A program made the position numbers and the translations under genes. From positions 186,001 through 250,000 of the forward strand of contig JAIWWG010000026.1 of the NCBI GenBank assembly GCA_025435555.1: 64,000 nt of DNA, in the 5' to 3' direction. Source of the DNA: Chytriomyces cf. hyalinus JEL632 (lineage: Eukaryota; Chytridiomycota; Chytridiomycetes; Chytridiales; Chytriomycetaceae). The notes under the pieces are model-generated. The model worked only from the letters and a program-made list of their open reading frames with translations. It had not been told where the DNA came from and made no database searches. Of the stretch, positions 3,977-50,330 are shown piece by piece. The first letter of the stretch is position 1, and every line of letters begins with the position of its first letter.

Positions 3977-6900
3977 TCAACGTTTCGAACCGCCAAGGCT
4001 CCAAACAGGCTTTTTAGTTTTTACAGTATTCGATCCAGCTGTACCACTTAATGCAAGCGGGTCCGATGCAGCTCCGCCGGAACCTCTCCGCCGAGAAACT
4101 CCTGAAGGGTCCAAGGCACTTGGACCCGATCCAGATTGCAAAGACATTTGATAAAATGCTGCATCATTCGATTGCTTCCCCATAGACGCGTCAGTCATTT
4201 GAGGTGTCAACGGTCGTCCGGATGCACTGGGCGTCAAGTCCGTCTCCGTTTCTATCATGGCCGTAGAAACATTGCTGCCAGCTGCAGATTCGTTCACAGA
4301 CATGGATGCTCCCATGGAAATGGAACGAGATAACCTGTTCGATTGGCCAGAGCTTGTTACATTCGTTGAGAGCGTGTTTGCACGGCGTTTCGAAGATGTC
4401 ACAGAATTGGACCTGGCACCTGAAGTTTTTTGAGTTTTTTGAGCATTCCTCGATTAATGCGAATCAATGGATTTACCAGTTCTTCGACTACGCTCATGTC
4501 GATTCTGAACATTTCGAAAATGCACGAGCAGCTCCGACCATTTCAATCCTAACGGCTCAGATTGAGGTTTCAACCTGGAAGCAAATATCAGTATGAGGGA
4601 TACCACAGATAGCAAAGTCATCCAATTATACTTTTTCGCGCTTCCCGGAAGAGGCGCAGCACCCCCAATCCCACTTCCAACACCCGCACCTACAGCCCCC
4701 GGAGCCAGTCCATACAACATGACCATATTCCCTACACTATTCAACCGATTCCTCAACGTTGCAAACGCCGAGCTTTGCGGCAACAACATTAAAATCCCGT
4801 ACAGCGTCTTATACAGGAACGGATACCGCTCCGGTTCAAGCAGCTGTAACCGCAGATATGTAAACACGGGGCTTTCAATCAGTTGCACGAGTTTGTCGAC
4901 TTGAATGAGGAATTGGACCGTGATTTCGAGGTCGGCAAATGTTTGGAGGAGAGTGGAGGCATGTTCGTATGCTTGGGAGAGGAGGCAGAGACAGAATGTT
5001 GAGACTGGATTGTGGCACCAGCTCCGATAGAGCACGGCAAAGAGCAGTAAGCCGTCCTAATGCGTTTCTCGAGTTAATCGCGAGGTTTTTGCAATCTAGC
5101 AATTCCAGGTTACCCTCGAATCCAGATTTTTAAGACGCCGCCGCAGATCCGACAGTTCAGGAGCAGTCACGAGAATAATATTCAATGTTTGGATCATTAA
5201 ACTGGCAAACTCCAAATCCTAGTGCAAAAAACGATCAGCATCTCTTCAACGAAACAGACGCGTTTGCAAGCTATTACCTCCTCCCTTTCCAAAATTTCAG
5301 CAAATACACGAAACATGCGTTCTGGATTCAATGACAAGCACAAATGCCGAATAATAAGAGACCCGCGAGACTCAAGAAGCCGCTTGTTGGATGCAAACAG
5401 GTCCAACAAGTTGAGAAGGAATCGTGTGAAATAGTCGTCATCTGAAGTCATTGATATCTGGGCAAGTAATTGCAAGTCCTTTTTGACAACCTGGGTTTGA
5501 ATGATGACAGGTCAATCAATCGTACAAGTGACATGCAATCATGGGTTCATACTTCTTCAGAAGTGTCAGACAATAAGCGCAACAGCGCTTGAAAAGTAAC
5601 GTCATCTGAATCAATCACCTTCGAAAAAAAAAAAAAGAGGAAAAACACAAACATCATTCAGCACCCATGACATACAATACGATTCTAAATAAATAGTGAC
5701 TCACTTTTTTGGGCGCCTTTTTATGCAACATTGCAAGCCATTCCATACTCGCTACCCTCGTCTCCTCACTCTCATCTTGAAACTGTTTCGTCAAAGCATC
5801 CACCGCACTCTTGACCTCAAAACCGCCCCCTACATCAACTCCAGGACTCCCGCCAGCACCAGCACCAGCACCACCCCCCTCAGAACCCAAATACAACACA
5901 CCCGCACTACCATACCCAAGAACCACACCAAACTCTGCAACAAGTTTAAACAACGCTGCATTCGCTTCAACAGCAATATTTCGAATCGGAGTGACATGAT
6001 GTGCCAGACACGGTAAAATTGATGCAACAAGTTCCGGTGTGAATGGAATCATGACGCGTTGAACGAGGGCGAGGAGTTGATGGATCCATCGTAACGCTGT
6101 TGCCTGAGTTTCCTCGTCTGAAGAAGAAACGTGCGGGGTCAAGATGAACACGATTTTACCAATGTCCAAGACAACATTGGCGCCATTTTGGTAGGAGGGG
6201 GGTTGGAAGGGTGGTGGGGCTGCTGTGGATGTGGATGATTTCATTGGGTACTGTGTATGAGTTTTGGTGTTGGGAGATTGCTTGTTGCTCATGATGGACG
6301 ATGTGGATGTTGATTGCGTGAGAACGGCGGTTGCATTGGATTTCGATGGCTTTGAAGTAGTGTCGACAAAGAAGCTGCTTGCAAGGGAAAGTGTGCTTGC
6401 AGGTCGACGCATCGCATCGTCATCGTGCTCTTGAGAAGCGAGTTGGTACGGGTGAGGAGGTGGGTTGAGCACGCCTGCAGTGGGTGCACTGATAACGGAT
6501 GCGGTTTTCCTTTGCGCGCTGGTTTCGTCTTCATCACCACTATGTTTTGAGGCTGACGATATGGAAGAATTGCTACTCGAACTGCTGTTTGCACGATTTC
6601 GAGTGTTCAAATCGACGATTCCTGAAAAGCTGGGAGTTGAGCTGATGGATCGCTTTCCAATTACATTCAAAACGCCTTGCTCCTTTTGAACTTGAACGAC
6701 ATCATGAATTTCCTTCAAGAATTCTCCGAGCAAATTGAGAGCCGCCGTGCGAACATCCAAATTTGGGTCACTGAGATAATTGAAAAGCCCGTCGAGAAAT
6801 TCGGGTAAATACGCAACAAGTTCCAAATACGGAATCGAATCCAAAGTCGTGATCCATTGTATCAGGTACATGCGCGTGAATGGGTTCAGTGTTTTAATTC

Positions 6901-7755
6901 TCTCAGAGAGTAATGGAATGAATCTGGGGAAATTGAACGTTGTTGGAAGCATTTCTGGGAGGAGAGATAGTGATCCAGGTGCTGCGGGGAATGCAGGCTC
7001 AGAGGGTGGGCGTGAATTTTGGGATGAGGGAAGCTGCTGCTGCTGATCCAAGTGTTGCTGAGAATAGTAACTGGCATACTCGCACACGATATCCTTGACA
7101 AGTCTGTCGAGTAGCTCGGCGCCATTTTTCACGGAAGGATCTGTATCTGCGACAAGCTGATTGATGTTGATGAGGAAATTGCGAAACACATTCAAAGGGG
7201 AACCAAGGGAATTACCCGCGACAGCGCATCCAAGATCTCGTTGAAAAAGCGTAGAATATGCCGCCTCGCAACTTTTCCGACATTGTACATGGACTCACAC
7301 GCGTAATATCGCACACGTGTGTCTGGGTCTGAGAAGCACGACAGAATGGGCGGCACAAGCACATCCAGACGAAGCGCAAGTTCATCGACACCAAGGGCAA
7401 TAGCGACGGCTTCAGAGAGTGATAGGAGAAGAAGTTGATAGAAGATGAATAGAAGAGTGAGATGAAGCAGAGTGAACTCACCCGCAAGGGCAATCAGCCC
7501 CCCGTTTCTGGCATTGGGCAGGGTCGAGTATGCAAAATCGCCTACAATTGCTTGTATGATGCGGTCAACTTTGGTCGTGTTGTTGACCACGAGCGCCTCT
7601 CTCACGAGTCTGGTTCGAGTTCAAGGTAAATTTCACACGTCCAACACCGGCGAATAGTTCAGGTACCGCTCGATCTCGAGGGCTGCTGTCTTGCGCTTGT
7701 CGTAAAGCTTCTCCTGCAGTTGCCGGCTGAGAGCGACGCCAAGCACTTCACTCAT
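3977..7755 (-). CDS. VAC14: Vac14-like scaffold of the PIKfyve/Fab1 kinase complex
   Basis: HEAT-repeat scaffold that, with Fab1/PIKfyve and Fig4, makes PI(3,5)P2 on vacuolar/endosomal membranes. The start at 7755 reads [20 protein letters not shown], then [10 protein letters not shown] and [17 protein letters not shown], matching the Vac14 N terminus. A long exon follows (5654-7195) with [20 protein letters not shown]-type HEAT repeats and [21 protein letters not shown] Ser/Thr/Asn-rich insertion sits in the middle (about 6,230-6,660). Further on come [20 protein letters not shown] and the Fig4-binding domain ([57 protein letters not shown]). A Ser/Gly-rich tail of about 140 residues (3,977-4,402) extends beyond the usual end. 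The product is about 1,050 residues, longer than yeast (about 880) or human (about 780) because of the insertion and tail. Internal exon borders are approximate. Confidence 0.93.
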
Positions 7756-7931
7756 TTACAGGCGACTGTTTTTTTCAAGGAAACACAAGTCACTTCGCGT
7801 GCGAACAGTTCGAAAAACAGAGATGATGGGATAAGAGCAGGACAAACTGGCCGCCTTTTATTTATCGAGCCTGAATTGCATTCACTACCACCCGAAACGA
7901 GGTGGGGAGTAACGCACAGCGATCAAACAGA

Positions 7932-8407
7932 TCAGTCAAAGAGACCGAAGCCCATGTCATCGTCAGACTCTTCCTTCTCTTCCTTCTTCTCCTCCTTCTT
8001 TCCGGCAGCAGCGGCAGCTGGGGCAGCCTCGGTGGCAGCAGCAACTGGGCCAGCGGCGGCACCTCCAGAGCCGGATCCGACGGCAAAGAGGAAGGAACCA
8101 ACGTCCTTTCCTTCGAGGGCCTTGGCAAAGAGAGATGGCCAGATGGACTCGATTTCGATTCCAGCGGAAGCGATCAGAGTGTTAAGCTTGTCGGCCTGGG
8201 GAATTCGAAGTTCGAGGTTTAGTGACCGAGATTTCGACATGTCCGTTTATATTGCAAGTGTCCATCCCCATGCGGCCGCCATCGACAGACACGATCCGTC
8301 CAGCTCATTCGATATACGCAGCAGATACTCACAGTGATTTCGAGGCCGTCATCGTGCAGGATGAGTGCAGAGTAGACCATTGCGGCCTCAGAGGTGGTGA
8401 GAGACAT
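7932..8407 (-). CDS. 60S acidic ribosomal stalk protein P1
   Basis: Component of the ribosomal stalk that recruits translational GTPases, acting as P1/P2 dimers on P0. Exon 8333-8407 encodes [20 protein letters not shown] to LEIT. A GTGAGT..CCCAG intron follows. Exon 7932-8195 encodes [20 protein letters not shown], then [20 protein letters not shown], an Ala/Gly hinge, a charged [11 protein letters not shown] run and the C-terminal [11 protein letters not shown] tail that binds elongation factors. The product is 112 residues, the family's usual size. An intron also ends 13 bases before the ATG (TTCTTCAG|AATTT), so the 5' leader is probably spliced. The reading frame is open upstream through that intron, but splicing it would break the frame, so the start is this ATG. 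Confidence 0.96.
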
Positions 8408-8477
8408 TTTGCAATTAAATTCTGAAGAACAATATCGATATGATGATCGAAACAAGCAAGTCAAACGTACTGCCACA

Positions 8478-8967
8478 TGCATGTCTGTCAAATACGCATG
8501 GGTAGGATCGACGAGGAATCGAAGTCTTCTTTCTTGATCTTCAGTCGGACCTGCCTTGATGAGTGTGTGTGTGATCCCAATCGAGGATATATGATGCGCA
8601 TCCGACACATTTTTGATTGTCCAACCCGAACTTGGCTGGCTGAGTTGCCGCATCATAAGGGGGGTGGGGTCGGCACTATTGCAGCTGTAACAGTCAGAGT
8701 GGAAGACAGCCTGCGCGCTCTTTTTAGAACGAAAAACAAGGCATGTCTTGCGTTTGCTTACGGATCCCATATGAATCTGTTGATCTGTTGACGGGCTTCT
8801 TGCGCATTGGTTTCCTTTGCATGCATTGGGATCTGAAACAAAACATCAAAAAGTTTCAGCATAAAAGAGACTCAGGCGTATCCTGACTTGACAAGGTTGG
8901 GCGACAGCACAATTTTTTGATACCAGAACAAAGTAAAATTTTCACAAAATACCCAAAACTGTGGCAT
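8478..8967 (-). CDS. small unrecognised spliced protein upstream of ribosomal P1
   Basis: I do not recognise this product. Three segments join in one frame on the minus strand. The first, from ATG 8967, reads MPQFWVFCENFTLFWYQKIV and SPNL. The second, after a TTTCAG acceptor, reads IPMHAKETNAQEARQQINRF and IWDP. The third, after a GTAAGC..TTACAG intron, reads CNSADPTPLMMRQLSQPSSG, TIKNVSDAHHIS and LRFLVDPTHAYLTDMHVA. In-frame joining across two introns argues for coding. The first donor (GTCAAG) is weak, and the start could instead be MHAKETN. The last segment runs into a GTACGT donor whose acceptor lies just before the P1 start codon. The chain may therefore be the spliced 5' leader or an upstream ORF of the P1 transcript rather than a separate gene. 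Confidence 0.3.
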
Positions 8968-10202
8968 TTGCCGACCATTCCATTCCATTTCCACGAGAAC
9001 GGGGGACGGTTTGGGGCTAAAGATCCAAATTCGCTCCTTTTATTCGTACTACAATCCTGGCATCAGCAAGATCATCAGTGCGAGTGTTGAACCTTGCCCG
9101 TTCCCGCAAAAGCCTGCACGAAACTACACAAGCTCGTCAGTGGGAACTATCGGGTGTTGAACCGTGCGTGTCCCGAAAAACATGAAACTAAGCAGTGTTT
9201 TTCTGCTCCCCAAACAATGGACTTGAATCCGACTAAGACGCTGCCGTTAAACACATCACCAATGATTCTCAAGGACAATGCCCTTGTTCGACAATGTGGC
9301 AAAATTGCATCTTCTCATGTGCTCATTAAACTTCAGGGTCCCTTCCCACTCCCAACATGCAATCTCCTATAAAAAGCTGATGCATCTCTGAGATGAACTC
9401 AGGTCTTTTAACAGCATCAGCACTCATTCAACCCCAGAGTAACCCCATCAGAGCCATCTTGCAAGGCCCATCACAAACAAAGGCAGCTCCAAATGTTTGC
9501 AAAAGACCAAAGTACAAGGAGCCAAAAGATACAGACCAATCAGATTATGGGAACATCCGCCGACGCGTATTCATTCATCTTCAAAAAAAAGTGCGTTACT
9601 CATCAACAATTCTATCCTACTTTCTTAATGTGAACCTCAATTTGATTCTATTTATATATTGGTAGATTGTATCACAATGCCAAAAACAACATGCAACAAA
9701 CATAATGGAGGGGAGTGAGGGCGTATTGTTAACAAAAGATCAATGTATCGACTTGATCATCTCAGTGGCTTTGGATGGTCGAGTTGTTGATGGATGCTGT
9801 GCTACTCAAAGCATGGCAGAATGCGAAAGGATGGTAACGTGAGATTGGAGGCTGAAGAAGGCGCGACTTGTGAGCACTGTGGTGTTTCGGTTATTTTGAA
9901 AGCTTGTCAGGACAGTCAGGTGATAGACGATATATATTAGCAGCTTTAATGTGTGGAACTTTTTTTTTTCCAAATAGGGATCTGTGGATAGGCTGAAGGA
10001 TGGAGGGCATTTTGCGGATGGAACAAGTAGCAGTGTGTAGTTGTCTCTTTTGCCAGAAGTGCTTCTCTTTGGTTTTGTTAACCTTTTCTAACAGTGACTG
10101 TAGAATTTTCAACAAGCTTTCCAACACAGAATGCATCAATTTAGTCAACTCGTTTCTCTCTTTTACTTTGGAATGGTTGCTGTTGTTCATGAAATAATAT
10201 TT
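8968..10202. other. 1.2 kb gap with no convincing gene
   Basis: The longest ORFs (90-99 codons on both strands) have no domain, overlap each other and are A/T-rich. An imperfect direct repeat, '(g/c)gtgttgaacc' followed by 'cccg(c/a)aaaa', occurs near 9,080 and 9,152. The minus-strand ORF at 9,891-10,190 lies where the HSP20 3' untranslated region should be. Confidence 0.4.
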
Positions 10203-37003: not shown

Positions 37004-39956
37004 TCATATTGAGCGTTCACTTGAGGACGACGGCACATTTGCCATGCTCGCTAACGACGATCGTTTAAATAACCCACTCTTCTTCTTCTTGCCAGCTTCC
37101 TCCATCTCACGTTGCTGACGATGCTCAAACGCCCGCAAGCTCGCGTTAAACTCCAAAATACGTCTCTGCTGGTCAATCATAAGCTCATCCTGCTTCTGCA
37201 CAAACTCTTCTAAACGCGCCATTCTTTTCCTTTGCGCTTCAATGATGCTCAGGCTTTCAAGCCGGTCCCGCTTTAACTGATCCACTGTCAGTTCAAGCGT
37301 TTCTAGTCGCTGCTGCAACCACGCCATCGTTTCACGCGCTGCTTCGTCGACTGCATCACTTTTACTCCGAGTGCTCCCCAACGGATAAGCAGCCGGGTTG
37401 AAATGCGAGGAGTCAAATCCCACAGAGACTGGACGACTGTTCCAGTGCGAGCTCGACGGTTGCGATCCGATAAAAGGCTGATACGGCGTCGCTTGATTTT
37501 GTGCAGCAAAGTGCTGCATGCTGAAATGATTGAGCGAGTTTCGCGCATTGATCACGTCCGATTCGGTAATGGAAGCGTCATTCTCATGCGCGCCCGGCAG
37601 GATCGGAGAATTTCGAGCCATGCTTTGTCGATCCATTTGTTGTTGCGCCTTTTGATTCGCTAAATGAGATAATATCCCACCCGACGGCTGTTGTTGCTGC
37701 TGTGTTGGCGCATTCAGAATCTGGGTAGACGCAGCAGCACCATCCACAACAAACGACCCGCCCGGCTCCGCCACCATCCTCTTTAACGTCAAAATGCGCC
37801 GTGGAACTTCACCCACTGTCTCATACCCATCTCCCATCGTCTGCAACGAATCCACAATCCGCTCAACAGCGTCCAACAATGCCCGCCCCCCCTCTCTCGA
37901 ACACAGAGGATCCCCTACGACGATTTCGAGAATATGCTCTTCCGGAGCTACAAGCTCCGGGTGCCAAGTGGCTATCCGGTTCAATGTTTCGAGAATCACC
38001 AGCAGCAGATTGACTGCTCTTTTGGTATCAGCTTCACTCGCATCCCTTGCATGACTCCTTAAGATCAGTTCCATCGTGGCAAACAACAAAGGCGTGCACA
38101 AATAACACCCTTCATCACTCGAAGTCGCGAGAACGTTGTAAATCGAAACAACACTATCACTCACAGCCGTCCCTGCCATTGACGAACCATTTCCATTTTC
38201 TACTTTACACTTGGGACTGAGGAAAGCAGCCACGATTGGGTTCAGCGCGAATGCGTTCGAGTAAAGTGTTGGTTGGCGAGAAATGACGTCAATGATGATG
38301 GTGGAGACTGTGTTGGCGACTTGGCCGTTTTCCAAAAGACGCAGCAGTTGCGGCACGCGATCTTGGAATAGCGCGGGTTCTTGGCAAAATGCAACGATGA
38401 AACTTACGAGGATTGCATGGGACTGATGATATCAGTGAGGTTAACAAAAATGAAAGAGCGCCCAGAAAAACAAAAACACAAACTCACAGAAATGTCAAAC
38501 AACTCATCCAGACACGATCTGAAAGCGCTTTTGTCCTCAGTGCTCATCAATCCCACGAGCATAATACCAACATGCGAATTTCCCGCTTTCGCCAGCTGTA
38601 ATAACGGACCCAAATGCTTCACAGCGGCTTTTCGCGCTCCAGCTGAAGAAATGGAAAAGCAGCTTGAAACATATTGAATTGATGTCACGTCCAGTTTGGA
38701 AAACACGGCAAACAACGAGTCAAAAATATCAAAGTCGCGGTCCGGCGAGTATTTCATGGAGTCTTGGATCATGAGAACGAGAATGATGGGGCCAAGCACA
38801 GTTTCTAATGCACTTCGGTCGTATTTTTTGAATTTGTGGGTGAGAAGAATGAGCGTGTTTGCGATCCAGCTGCAGTCGGGAAGAGTGGTAAGCCCAGGGG
38901 ATGAAAGAAATGTGTGAATTTCTTGCACAAGGTCCACAAAAAGGTCAAGCATGAATGAGAATTCCTGAAAAGCGGCAGTGAAGTTTCAACGTGGGCACAA
39001 TTCGAAAACACATGTATAAACAAGAGTACCTTTGATATCACCAATTCTGATGATATCGCCCCAAACGCATTGATTTCATGGACAGCTTTAATAAACGCGG
39101 GATCACGACCACCTGCTGCAGAATCAGGCCCAGACAGCGCCGCAGCTTTGATTATTTCAAGACATTGAATTAAAGCGCGTCTTCGATGCTGAGGGGGAGA
39201 TGTTTCATCAATTGCAGTTGAAACCGAGGTGCGCATGGATTGGAACACACTTCGCCGCTCGTCAGCGTCGTAAACACTTTCGAGCTCCAGCACCATTTCC
39301 CATTCATCAACCTTTTCATCGAGACCAATGTGCATTGCGAGTTGCACGAGCGACATGCCGATATTGAAGCGCAGAGTCTATGAGATTGTTGTGAGGGAGT
39401 AGTGGGGACAGATGAATGTAATGTACGGGTGTAGACTTACAAGTGGACCCCAGATCTGCAAGATGTCCCATGCCTCTTTTTGTTTAAAATGCCGAACAAG
39501 ATCAGGAGCGTCAAACAGCAACCGTGCAATGAGAGCAAACTCCGTCACGAGATCAAAGTTGAGGGCCTCATCTTCAAGGCAGAAAACGCGGCGGTAGAGT
39601 ACATCCAGAAGGCGGAGCAGCGATTCAGTTGAAATTGTTGAAGAGTTGGAAGTCGGGGTTGAGTGGGGAATGCTGTCGGTTGATGACGAGGTGTGGTCTA
39701 CAATTGACGTGAGCAGGGCCCGAAGAGGATATGCGACAGCGTCGAGCAGCCACGGAGACGAAGGCGAGTCCATCAAATCCATCAAGGAAGAGAGAGCAGC
39801 TATTTCGTCCGAGAGGCTGTTGCCAGAAGAAGAGTTGGCAGTCTCAGGATGAACGGCATTCACGGCTCGCTGGGACACGCTCTGGCCGAGACCTCCGAGG
39901 GCTATCCGGCAGCTCACGGTGCTTCCCATGCGCATGCTCTCCAGATACGGATCCAT
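37004..39956 (-). CDS. armadillo/HEAT-like helical protein with C-terminal coiled coil
   Basis: I do not recognise a named family. The start MDPYLESMRMGSTVSCRIAL at 39956 opens an all-helical N-terminal two thirds with repeated pairs of amphipathic helices: LLRLLDVLYRRVFCLEDEAL, FALIARLLFDAPDLVRHFKQ, MSLVQLAMHIGLDEKVDEWE, RDFDIFDSLFAVFSKLDVTS, GARKAAVKHLGPLLQLAKAG and VNLLLVILETLNRIATWHPE. This is typical of ARM/HEAT solenoids. A Gln/Ser-rich linker (about 37,400-37,700) follows. The C terminus is a coiled coil: MAWLQQRLETLELTVDQLKR, then LSIIEAQRKRMARLEEFVQK and RALEHRQQREMEEAGKKKKS-type charged repeats, ending SSSSERSI at 37004. About 890 residues with about four introns. A scaffold role is inferred from architecture only. 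Confidence 0.75.
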
Positions 39957-44173: not shown

Positions 44174-45672
44174 CTATTTCGACGTCAATTTCAATCCCAA
44201 AAACTCGACAATTTTGACCATCAGCTGCGACTGCTTCGCCGCCTTCCGCTCCGCTTCCGCCATCTGATCCCTCATTCTCTTTTGCTCCAGCACAAGACCC
44301 CGCACAATCTCCTTCAATCGATCCGATTCAGCCGTCTTGGCCTCCAACGCGGCAATGCTACGTCGAAGCAGGTTCTGTTCTTGCAACTGAAACTCCATTT
44401 CAACCATACGTTCTTTGATCACTTCTTGCTCGTTGGCGATAATTTGTTGTCCCGTGTGGAGCAGGTGCGTGGTGCTGGGGTGGGAGGGTATCGACGGGGA
44501 AACGAGAAAGTCTAACGCGCTGCTGGTTCGGTCGCTCCCGGCGTCTCCCATGTACTCAATACTGCTGCGGAAAAGGAGGCTTGGGGATTGTGAAGGGTAT
44601 GTGGTTGCGTCATTGTTTAACGAGTGCTCCAAGTCGTTGAGGTATTCGTCCAGTGCGCGTGCGAGGGGTGCCTGCACTGCTGCCGATGGGTAGAGAGGCT
44701 GGGTATTCATGTTTGAGGAATTGGAAGCGATGGGTGGAGTGCTGCCGCGGTTGATGTACGTGAGGTTACTCATCCCAGGAACGGTTGGGCTCAGGCCCGG
44801 GGGAGCGCCGAACGGGTTTTCTTCGTCATCTTCGTCATCTTCGTCATCTTCAACGTCGACATCATCGGCATACTCCGCATCAATTGAACAACTTTCAAGG
44901 CTTTCTTCGACAGTAACGACATCTTCGAGCGTCTCCACCTCATATACACGGGTGTTATCTGCTGATTCAGCGCGCTTCTTGAGCACAGAAGCAAGTTCGC
45001 TCGCAAGCACGTCCATGACATCCTCCCATGCATCCGAGTCGCCAATATGTCTTCTGTTGATGCAGATGGACTCGTGCCCAAAAGTGTCCGTCAACGGACG
45101 CGTCCATGTCCAAGGGCCTTCGTCCAAGAACACTGGAATCACAGGCTTCGGAGTCAAAAGGGAAGCACCAAAGGCCAGTTCGTGCCGGCATTTGTGACAC
45201 TCCTTTTTATGGAGTATTTGTCAGCTTTTTGCGCAATTTGGAATGAATTGAAAACGAGCACCTCGTACGCACGCAGCACAAGCGGGATTGTCACACGGGT
45301 TTTCAGCACTCTGGACACGATGCGCTCGTACACTTGTGTTCCGTTGAACTTGTCCAGATCCAGAAGAACGCTGAAGCCTCTCTCGGCGAGACTGCCGTGC
45401 ATGCGGATGGCTACACCCACTTGGTCAACGCTACGGGCGGACTGCGTCAGGTATGGAGTGCATACATCCAGCTGTCCTCCTCACCTGTAACTCAACATGC
45501 AGTCGTAGGTCTCTGTAGTTTCCGGGCTCAGCTTTAGGGTGGCCAGACGGTCCAAAAACTTGTCGTCTGGATCCGAGAGGCCCTTGGAGGGAAGGACTTG
45601 CAGTAGCCGGTCCTTGACAGAGACAGGCGCTGAGGCTGCTGCTGTCGCCGTTGTTGGCGGATCTTGGGTCAT
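44174..45672 (-). CDS. TIR-domain protein with acidic linker and coiled coil
   Basis: The start MTQDPPTTATAAASAPVSVK at 45672 precedes a TIR-like domain over residues about 45-190. Strand A is YDCMLSY, ending at a donor. After the acceptor CCCGTAG the frame resumes VDQVGVAIRMHGSLAERGFS and VLLDLDKFNGTQVYERIVSR, then TIPLVLRAYE. After a second in-frame intron comes ECHKCRHELAFGASLLTPKP, VIPVFLDEGPW and SICINRRHIGDSDAWEDVMD. The glutamate of RHELAF (codon 45,179-45,181) sits where TIR NADases such as SARM1 have the catalytic Glu (HKEIVTAL). A linker with an acidic run (DDEDDEDDEE) and disorder follows, then a coiled coil (RMVEMEFQLQEQNLLRRSIA, LKEIVRGLVLEQKRMRDQMA) to the stop. About 460 residues. 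TIR domains either cleave NAD+ or mediate self-association, and which applies here is not decided by the sequence. Confidence 0.75.
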
Positions 45673-46960: not shown

Positions 46961-48191
46961 TCATTTACAATTCGTCACATTCTTCTGCGCCACATCCACA
47001 TCCAACTTACTTGGCCGCACCCAATCCAACCTCCCCTCGCGCAACCCACTCTCACGATCAACAATCATCTCAAGCACACCCTCAACCTCCCCACAATACT
47101 TTTCAAGCGGCAAATCCCTCGCATCCATCCCAAACGGTTGTTCAATCTCATCCGCAATCGCCAACATTCCCAAAAACACAAACGAAACAATCGCGCACGG
47201 CAACACAGTCAACCACTGTAGTGCATTCACGAGCGCGAATGGGATCCCGAGGAGGTACAGCATTGTTGCCTGGTATAAATGGATTGTGTATGCTGGAGGT
47301 GCCGGGGTGGTTTTGATGCGTTCTAGGTGGGTTGTTTGATCGACAAGTGTGGATATGCTTGCGTAAAAGACTGAAGGGGTTGGTTTTTGGGAGAATGGGC
47401 GTGATAGGATGTATCGTTGGAGTTTGTTGAGGATTTCAAGAGGGTCTGTGGATGTCGTGCTTGAGAAATCTTCTTGTTCTCCTTCGTTGGGTATTGTTTC
47501 ATTCCGAAGCAAGTCTTTGACGGACGCTGGAAACTGTGCAAGTAGCCTCAAAGCAGATTCTTTTGCCAAAGCATCTTCTGGCAGTTGGACCACATCGTAC
47601 ACGGCCATAAATCTCGCGAGATTGACAGTATTGTAAAACAACTGCGACCAAAGTTTGCGTCCTTCCCAGTACCGATCACTATAAACAACGCAACGAAGGT
47701 CAGGGGGCCCGCGTTTCCTCAAATATCAGCAGAACCAAAAAACTCAACTATGCAGTTGTTGTTCTGAACGCCATGAGTAAATTAATGGTCATGCTGACGA
47801 TCACCAGATACGTCGTGCTAGATGGAAGTACAATCAACGCTGGCGTGGGAACCAGTACCACGCACGACACAGCAACAGCCCACACAGACAATCCAAGCAC
47901 AGGTATCAGGACAACTGGAGCAATGGAGAGAGACGGTTTGAAGAGGTCTTCCCAGTGCTCTTCAGATTGGTTGCCTGAATGGCGAGCTGTTTCTTCGCGC
48001 AAGGTTGCGTTTCGTTCCAATGCTGCTGTGGAGTCCCATGTGGATTTCGCTTTGAGGGTAGTTTGTGAACTGGATGGGGCGGGGGTGAATTCGCGGAAGG
48101 AGACTGTGGAGGAGGTGCGTGGGGTATCTCTGTCTTCGATGATCTCTGCAGGGGCCGTGGATGTGATGGTGGTTGTTGCAGTTGTTGGCAT
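46961..48191 (-). CDS. bestrophin-like anion channel, paralogue 1
   Basis: Bestrophin/UPF0187-family membrane protein, a probable chloride/anion channel. The start is ATG 48191 (MPTTATTTITSTAPAEIIED). A disordered Thr/Ser head is followed by EEHWEDLFKPSLSIAPVVLI, VWAVAVSCVVLVPTPALIVL and YLVIVSMTINLLMAFRTTTA (spans 1-2). An intron ends before SDRYWEGRKLWSQLFYNTVN, the conserved family motif after span 2. Further spans are IHLYQATMLYLLGIPFALVN and LPCAIVSFVFLGMLAIADEI, then EQPFGMDARDLPLEKYCGEV. This EQPFG-D-DLPL segment is the bestrophin C-terminal signature. About 390 residues. It is tandem with paralogue 2, which starts just upstream. Confidence 0.88.
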
Positions 48192-48276: not shown

Positions 48277-49727
48277 TTATTTTGCTAAAGAGGCTTTGAC
48301 GCCCGCTCGATTTGCAAGGCCTTTCCAATGTGGCGACCAGTGGAAGTCGTATTCCATCGATCGACTGAGCATAAACACTTCATCGCATCCATCACGCGTG
48401 TCCCCCCACCGTCCATCCTCCATAGAGTCCGTACGTGCCAGCATCGCCTCCACATTGTCGCGTATACTGTCGCAGTAGCTGTCAATGTCCAAGTCTTGCT
48501 GATCGTATCCAAAAGGATTTTCAATCCGGTTGCCAACCTGTCTCAACAAAAGAAGTTACACAAAACACTCACCCAAAAACTCACAAGTAAGACTCACATC
48601 AGTGATGCCAACCAATAAGAACGCCGTCATCAGCGACACGACAGGAGTCAACCAACCCACCTGCTGAATCACCACAAACGGAATGCCGTACAAATAAATA
48701 AAAACACAATGTGCCAAATGAATCTTGACGGGCGATGGAACCGGCGTACTCTGAATCCGATCCATCTGACAATGCACCTCCTGTAGCCCCGAAATTGCCG
48801 CCAAAATCTGATAACTCGGCAACCTCTCCGACCGCATCGCAGCGTACGACAAGTAATACTGCAAACACGTGATAATATCCAGCGGGACATTATGCGTGGT
48901 TGAGTTGAAATTTGGTGGAACAGCAACGTGTTCAATGTATTGCGCGAGATCATGGTATTTTGCACCCTTTTCAGTGCGGAGTTGGTGTTTGACGGCGATC
49001 GCGAAGCCAATCAAAAGTTTTAGAGTTTTGCGGCGGTTTAGCCGGTCTTCCTCGGTTTGTGAGCTGAAGTAGATTGTAATGAGGCGGGCTAGGTTGAGGA
49101 CTTGCGATTGAAGCGTGCCCCATAGTTTGACTCCGTCCCAGTATCGATCACTGCCGGAGGACAGTTTCAGTGGGAGCGAAACAATTGGGTTGAGACTCAA
49201 CTATTGGTTGTTTAGGCAGAAGGACACGAGCAGACCGAGAGGCTGCGTCGTCACCACCACGAAAGTCATGGCCGACGACGGCAGATACGCCGCTGTTCCT
49301 GGTATGCCAAGGAATACGACGCATACAAGAAAAGACCACCAAGTCAAGAAGGCAATCTTCCCCTGCAATGTTGTTTCAATTTGTTACACAGCAATTCCGA
49401 CTTGGCACTGAAAATGGAACGAACCTGAATGAACGGCACGATCGACATCCTTATATTGAACAGATCATCCCAATGCTCGGAAAAGAGGTTTCCCTCTCGA
49501 TTGCGCTTGCGACTGGCTGTAACTTTCTTGCGGGCCGAGAGAAGGGATGCGTTGTCGCCATCGGTGCTGCGTCGACAGGTCTCGAGCAGGAACAGTGACG
49601 AGGACGTGAGTGTGGTGCTGAGCATTGTGTATGTTGATGTCTGCGTGTCTGGGCGGGATGGACCATCCTGGATCGGGAGTTGATCGGTTGAGATGTCGAG
49701 AAATGGATCGACTTCTCGCTGGTTCAT
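48277..49727 (-). CDS. bestrophin-like anion channel, paralogue 2
   Basis: Same family as the preceding gene. The start MNQREVDPFLDISTDQLPIQ is followed by a polar head, SEHWDDLFNIRMSIVPFIQ and an intron, then ITWWSFLVC-type span 1 and AYLPSSAMTFVVVTTQPLGL. After another intron comes SDRYWDGVKLWGTLQSQVLN, matching SDRYWEGRKLWSQLF in paralogue 1. Later spans are IHLAHCVFIYLYGIPFVVIQ and LTPVVSLMTAFLLVGITD. After an intron comes VGNRIENPFGYDQQDLDIDS, the C-terminal signature (ENPFG-D-QDLD). The C-terminal tail (HWSPHWKGLANRAG) is longer than in paralogue 1 and has no match there. About 430 residues. The two genes share exon order, which supports tandem duplication with strong later divergence. 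Confidence 0.88.
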
Positions 49728-49809: not shown

Positions 49810-50330
49810 TCACTCCCAAAAAGTTTGCAATCGCTTTTGTTGAGAAAGATTCTTTTCGAGACGCTCAATTTCTTGCGCCCGTTTCTCTTGAAGTTTTCTT
49901 TCAAGGTCCTCAATGCGTGCTTGGAGCTGCGAAACTATTGCAGCGTCGACGACTGATTCTGGGGCGCCGTGCGAGATGGGAGCTGATGCTGGAATTGCGA
50001 CAAACAACTGCGGTAAATCGGGTTGGTTCCAAATTCTTGAATGACTTCTGTCTTTGACTGCGAGAAGAGTTTGGCGTGCTTAATGTTTCTGTGGCTGCCT
50101 TGACAACTTTGAGGGAAGTACGTCCGGCTTGAGGGGGTGCCAGTTCATCCACGCATACCAAGGGGAAAGTTTGCTGCAGACTTTTTTTTGAGTGGAAGCG
50201 AAACTTTCTGGTTGACGTTTCAAGGGACCTGGAATGTCCAGCGGGGTTTCCAAGTCACACAAGATGTAGAGAAGTTTCTCCCCAATTTCGAAACGCGGAC
50301 AACCGTTTTTCGATCAACCCAGGCTCAATA
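49810..50330 (-). CDS. short coiled-coil hypothetical protein
   Basis: Not recognised. Minus-strand segments read KLLYILCDLETPLDIPGPLK then ASTQKKVCSKLSPWYAWMNW (50,080-50,290). A 3' segment, QLFVAIPASAPISHGAPESV, then VSQLQARIEDLERKLQEKRA and QEIERLEKNLSQQKRLQTF, ends at 49810. The last 45 residues are a strong coiled coil. The join between the two parts is unclear because no single GT-AG choice gave one clean frame, so the model is only a span. It lies upstream of bestrophin paralogue 2 on the same strand. Confidence 0.35.

Follow-up and report, generated by a model that had tools for sequence, protein, structure and literature searches.

Three features lie on the minus strand of the window, the whole 64,000-nucleotide stretch analysed here (C162:186001-250000 of the organism's own assembly, 37.8 Mb in 242 contigs, which was also searched): a predicted gene for a TIR domain joined to a C-terminal coiled coil (44174..45672; three exons, 461 aa), a gene for a helical region followed by a coiled-coil-like stretch (37004..39956; four exons, 919 aa), and, by similarity to contig C46, the remnant of a fused helical-TIR-TIR-coiled-coil gene (49834..50301). 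Between the TIR-coiled-coil gene and the remnant there is a Bestrophin_2 match (46964-47725; 151.7 bits, the scan covering this first stretch) and, by eye, a second Bestrophin_2-related stretch (48280-49200).

The TIR-coiled-coil gene starts with an ATG at 45672 and ends with a TAG at 44176-44174. Exon 1 (45485..45672) encodes the N-terminal 55 residues followed by YDCMLSY, which is TIR box 1; exon 2 (45262..45430) encodes the middle of the domain, including Asp87 in LLDLDKF; and exon 3 (44174..45202) encodes the remaining TIR sequence, an acidic linker and the coiled coil, through to the stop. The exons are separated by intron 1 (45431..45484; 54 nt, phase 2, GTGAGG...TAG) and intron 2 (45203..45261; 59 nt, phase 0, GTGCTC...AAG). 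Enumeration yielded 64 donor/acceptor combinations that keep the frame open, so the three-exon model draws on further evidence. We chose this splicing because a branch-point-like CTGAC lies shortly 5′ of the acceptor in both introns, because the same sites are kept in a diverged copy on C46 although the intron sequences differ, and because paralogues have homologous introns. Start and stop coincide exactly with the coordinates given in an earlier note on this DNA, which likewise proposed three exons, and the motifs quoted there are all present: YDCMLSY at residues 56-62, RGFSVLLDLD with Asp87, RHELAF with Glu127, and VIPVFLDEGPW from residue 140.

The predicted protein is laid out as residues 1-55, the TIR domain (~56-196), an acidic run (~232-247; 44819..44866), a low-confidence stretch, and a coiled-coil-like helix of 93 residues (361-453; 44201..44479). 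For this helix AlphaFold, given exon 3 alone as a single sequence without an alignment, returned pLDDT values in 10-residue blocks of 63, then 90-97 in at least seven blocks, then 78, and a rough coil score supports a coil at residues 410-452. The TIR half of exon 3 yielded nothing reliable in the same run (blocks of 26-53), which is to be expected of half a domain modelled from a single sequence. The acidic run and the helix both support the acidic linker and C-terminal coiled coil that had been proposed from the letters alone. The acidic run is three residues shorter in the C46 copy; a function was looked for in the linker and none was found.

The second copy and selection

A second copy of the TIR-coiled-coil gene is located at C46:492319-493808, in a segment that is mostly 85-91% identical to 44-57 kb of the window. 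In the protein alignment 441 of 458 residues (96%) agree, and over the whole protein we obtained a dN of 0.0177 with a dS of 0.253 (NG86) or 0.197 (YN00; dN again 0.0177). The whole-protein dN/dS of 0.07 argues that the protein has been maintained, and the ratio is lowest in the TIR part (residues 57-200; dN 0.015, dS 0.33, dN/dS ~0.05), the other two of the three parts giving 0.11 and 0.08. Purifying selection on this gene is clear. That we are dealing instead with chance open frames or a degraded paralogue, and thus with a false or decaying gene, is very improbable: the related fused gene in the same segment is indeed a remnant, and the intron 2 donor is non-consensus (GTGCTC in the window gene, GTGGTC in the C46 copy), but frame, splice sites and stop have all been kept in two copies separated by a dS of 0.25 and a dN of 0.018.

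Elsewhere in the window, positions 4001-10000 have a partner on contig C133 at 87% identity. Given the partner segments on C133 and C46, the assembly seems to comprise two diverged sequence sets that differ in spacing.

The TIR domain and its glutamate

Residues 59-149 match the Pfam family TIR_2 (PF13676) with 29.1 bits against a curated cut-off of 28 (E 1.6e-6), and the TIR identity that the earlier note had read from motifs is thereby borne out by profile search. The domain resembles the family in the order of its core motifs and in its Glu column, and differs in scoring barely over the cut-off and in carrying a Lys four positions before the Glu. TIR_2 is the only Pfam family found in the protein at E<=1; SAM, NACHT, NB-ARC and HET had no match at this threshold. 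Searches with the window TIR gave no match in NCBIfam at E<=0.1 or in PADLOC at E<=0.01; the first TIR of the fused C46 protein had two weak Aga_TIR matches in PADLOC (best E 6e-4).

We aligned six TIR domains (alignment A1), namely those of the window gene and its copy, both TIRs of the fused C46 gene (TIR1 and TIR2), one TIR from contig C187 and the TIR from contig C166. Columns of Glu, Asp, Ser-Tyr and Cys are invariant in all six rows, two of which are near-identical copies. Against the PDB the A1 profile matched 46 sequences at E<=0.01, headed by Cat1 (1.3e-8), RPS4 (2.9e-6) and 7xoz, an 'ADP-ribosyl cyclase' (1.8e-5), with RPP1, Roq1, MyD88, TLR1 and SARM1 lower in the list. Cat1 and plant TIRs are thus the highest-scoring solved relatives; SARM1 appears from 3e-4 and is outscored by the MyD88 and TLR chains, which are scaffold-type TIRs. 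The fungal Glu column, represented in the window by the Glu127 codon within CRHEL (45179..45181), meets the CxxEL Glu in five printed profile alignments, which cover three distinct proteins (Cat1, RPS4 and 7xoz) whose Glu we take to be catalytic. Searching with the window protein alone (phmmer) returned SARM1 chains only (seven sequences, E 0.15-0.26, not significant), and in that alignment the program did not pair Glu127 with the SARM1 Glu. The correspondence drawn by eye between this Glu and that of TIR NADases thus stands by profile for Cat1, RPS4 and 7xoz, and is not reproduced for SARM1 in the single-sequence alignment.

The residue four before Glu127 is Lys123 in the window gene, likewise Lys in the C46 copy, and Asn in the four paralogue rows of A1. 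In Cat1, RPS4 and 7xoz, as printed, a Trp stands there (WCxxE), at what we presume to be a functionally relevant position of TIR NADases, and the window protein has Lys in its place. Further core departures of the window TIR from its relatives in A1 are VWLD to VLLD, LS to LR and SYNW to SYSV. According to PMC7075850, over 70% of TIRs have the Glu itself, as do over 90% of those in the TLR1/2/6/10 subgroup, and its presence does not necessarily go with activity. Since most TIRs carry this Glu, and since Lys precedes it by four positions here, Glu alone is weak evidence for an NADase; of the step from Glu to NADase taken in the earlier note, the conserved column stands and the enzymatic conclusion is weakened. 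As a sequence feature, Glu127 would allow catalysis without demonstrating it.

The main rival to an enzymatic role, which we regard as possible although on balance doubtful, is a non-enzymatic adaptor, whose TIR would, after losing catalysis, serve as a scaffold for, or a brake on, an enzymatic fused protein or TIR-NACHT receptors, docking by TIR-TIR and coiled-coil contacts. Such a role would suit the gene-specific changes around the Glu (Lys four positions ahead of it) and elsewhere in the core (VLLD, LR for LS), and a paralogue with two TIRs and a coiled coil does lie 4 kb from the second copy. Both Glu127 and Asp87 have, however, been kept in the two copies, and of the three parts compared it is the TIR whose dN/dS is lowest (~0.05 against 0.11 and 0.08), which speaks against an adaptor, though a scaffold would also be constrained.

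TIR relatives in the genome

Outside the window gene and its copy, we found 15 TIR_2 matches in the genome at E<=0.1, of which 11 exceed the cut-off and two lie in one C46 gene; the figure is a lower bound because exons were scored separately, so that split TIRs escape. The rarity of fungal TIR domains asserted in the earlier note is in line with the literature, but in this genome they are not rare. A 2026 preprint atlas (PMC13142454) lists fungal TIRs from one species only, Rhizoclosmatium globosum, in a database with few fungi, and gives no fungal TIR in the InterPro clan and very few reported earlier. Dyrka et al. (2014; PMC4986451) reported no NLR matches in chytrids, and Wojciechowski et al. 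(2022; PMC9815663) mention a TIR in Chytridiomycota NLRs and, in Pezizomycotina, domains that are TIR-like. The HET domain of Dikarya is described as remote TIR kin with the Glu kept (PMC4986451, PMC9815663, PMC9153377); the window protein differs in having no HET match at E<=1.

Four of the 15 matches belong to TIR-NACHT genes, of which C187 has three units in tandem and C166 a single one. In all four the TIR precedes a NACHT-type domain (for the two scanned, NPHP3_N at 85.7 and 82.6 bits, with NACHT over its cut-off in both), and these relatives look like immune receptors. The window gene shares with them a related TIR domain and intron sites, and differs in that its protein lacks NACHT and has the acidic linker and coiled coil instead. 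Specifically, intron 2 has one and the same place and phase (0) in the window gene and its copy, in the C166 gene and the C187 units at 88.8 and 94.1 kb, and in C46 TIR1 and TIR2, in both of which it is the second-ranked splice candidate. Intron 1 has one place and phase (2) in the window gene and its copy, in C46 TIR1, and in the 88.8 kb unit and the C166 gene; in C46 TIR2 this intron requires a low-scoring site, and the 94.1 kb unit gave no resolved intron 1. The TIR-NACHT genes examined therefore share the intron 2 site in three of three cases and the intron 1 site in two of three, with splice choices that were guided by homology and a frame change between pieces that is independent of that guidance. 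By comparison, TIRs of a second type, found on C184 and in one of the C123 genes, read through both intron points unbroken. This kinship with TIR-NACHT genes would strengthen a defence or cell-death role for the window TIR.

In a tree of ten TIR rows, the window TIR groups with its copy (100/99) and the C46 TIRs are the nearest other rows by path; with four of the seven inner branches open and long branches joining one another, we draw no order of descent from it. Scans for a bacterial or viral origin, which detect close relatives only, gave three pattern matches and no confirmed one in viral contigs (with A1), and 17 pattern matches, again none confirmed, in genome contigs (with A2, a two-row alignment of the C46 TIRs). 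The DNA of the TIR-coiled-coil gene had no match in plasmid records.

Several other TIR genes were seen in passing. The C187 units (C187:82579-94331) are spaced ~5.2-5.3 kb apart, and in the frames read the 83.6 kb unit does not differ from the 88.8 kb one. Within the second TIR type, the other C123 gene and the C68 gene have a frame change inside the TIR, and the flanks of the genes of this type (C123, C184, C68) appear membrane-spanning by eye. Three TIR_2-matching copies with identical frames (C46:6235, C37:67998 and C204:209549) each lie ~6 kb from a contig end, and are therefore perhaps subtelomeric. A Gln/Ser-rich stretch is located upstream of the C90 match, and the frame downstream of the C211 match is ankyrin-like by eye.

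Fused and separate genes, and a candidate effector

The fused gene, 4 kb from the second copy of the TIR-coiled-coil gene, has a spliced, open model of 1,048 aa (C46:484526-488144), although two introns in it are uncertain, the first of the gene and the first of TIR2; the protein runs from ~640 residues without a Pfam match through TIR and TIR to a coiled coil, with TIR_2 at 121.6 bits over two stretches. Just ahead of its first TIR, the fused protein resembles the N-terminus of the window protein (KGLSDPDDKFLD and LGINPDDPFFD in A1). In the window only 50301-50016 and ~50001-49834 match the fused gene, and what is missing comprises the part with exon 1 and ~2.5 kb with both TIR domains. Over 540 columns the 919-aa product of the helical gene, whose second intron is uncertain among equal candidates, shares 24% identity with the fused protein's N-terminal region; comparing just these two sequences gives E 3e-24, and in the genome search the best single piece has E 1.8e-5. 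It ends in a stretch judged by eye to be coiled-coil-like, and has no Pfam match, TIR included, at E<=1. Its C46 copy is open over the part fetched and 92% identical (dN 0.037, dS 0.26, dN/dS 0.14 over 873 codons, with the first 43 codons left out). The locus thus holds both parts of the fused protein as separate open genes, and the fused form occurs on one segment only.

It is conceivable, although rather unlikely, that the TIR-coiled-coil and helical-coiled-coil proteins are separated halves of the fused protein that form one complex, in which the helical part would sense or restrain while execution falls to the TIR part; this reading overlaps with that of a TIR effector. The fused protein contains both parts; the two genes are 4.2 kb apart on one strand of the window and open in two copies (dN/dS 0.07 and 0.14); and both proteins end in coiled-coil-like helices. 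On C46, however, the genes are ~21 kb apart, so tight linkage has not been kept, and the helical region has no Pfam match (E<=1), nor a PDB match better than E 0.085, to mark it as a sensor. In addition, residues 201-461 of the window protein had no BLAST match to the C-terminal end of the fused one, so a common origin of the two coiled coils cannot be claimed.

A useful comparison is SARM1 / TIR-1, the animal NAD+ hydrolase with the architecture ARM-SAM-SAM-TIR. In both SARM1 and the window protein a TIR is joined to a part that may oligomerise, and the fused relative is like SARM1 in its long, apparently helical N-terminal region before the TIRs. The window protein differs in having only 55 residues before an N-terminal TIR and no SAM match, no ARM can be recognised in the helical region of its relatives, and with A1 SARM1 has a weaker E-value than Cat1, plant TIRs, MyD88 and TLR1 have. 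The candidate identity of the helical region as a SARM1 ARM is not supported by Pfam, PDB or Foldseek searches, and we therefore use the neutral name 'helical region'. Pfam yielded no match to ARM/HEAT for the N-terminal region of the fused protein at E<=0.1; in the PDB the best single-sequence match of the helical region was an unrelated enzyme (E 1.1), and the best match of a two-row profile was Exportin-5 (E 0.085). A single-sequence model of 213 residues from exon 4 of the helical gene is all helical but of low confidence (pLDDT 54), and none of its 735 Foldseek matches reached E<=0.001.

The reading that we prefer, and consider about evenly poised between right and wrong, is that the TIR-coiled-coil gene encodes a TIR effector that would oligomerise and probably consume NAD+, and that would act in defence or in regulated cell death. 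We base it on the TIR_2 match, the Glu column, the helix, the dN/dS and the intron sites in common with TIR-NACHT genes; counted against it are the commonness of the Glu, the Lys four before it, the core departures, the higher scores of scaffold TIRs than of SARM1, and the single-sequence E-value of 0.15 for SARM1. In such an effector, damage, parasites or non-self would be the trigger, and the C-terminal coiled coil would gather several copies of the protein, so that their TIR domains could stack. A composite site around Glu127 and Asp87 would then most likely process NAD+, by hydrolysis or to a cyclic ADP-ribose product, and the outcome might be metabolic arrest, cell death or a second-messenger signal. 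A broader suggestion, improbable though not negligible, is that SARM1-like logic evolved separately in this fungus, as a fused protein and a split, coiled-coil-joined pair, fed by or parallel to TIR-NACHT receptors.

TIR is an immunity and cell-suicide module of plants, animals and bacteria that has hardly been studied in fungi, and a SARM1-like fungal system, if real, would amount to TIR-driven regulated cell death in a zoosporic fungus. The more novel element is the setting, with intron sites in common with TIR-NACHT genes, a fused helical-TIR-TIR-coiled-coil relative, and split genes. A conserved candidate effector gene together with TIR-NACHT paralogues and a split or fused partner makes the question of fungal TIR cell death directly testable. 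Regulated cell death in fungi has been studied via HET, HeLo and gasdermin proteins and NLRs (PMC10197012), and no fungal TIR-coiled-coil or helical-TIR-TIR protein was found among the titles and abstract openings listed from the open-licence PMC literature. Comparable too are the TirBCD proteins of Dictyostelium, which are likewise free-standing eukaryotic TIRs outside animals and plants; they are reported to be close to bacterial TIR-STING, and TirC to be a toxic, oligomerising NADase (PMC13142454).

As to the organism itself, the genome contains 18 matches to Chitin_synth_1 (best 2e-71) and 12 to Radial_spoke (best 1.1e-40); neither is specific alone, and together the chitin synthase and radial-spoke genes fit a flagellated fungus of the zoosporic, chytrid type.
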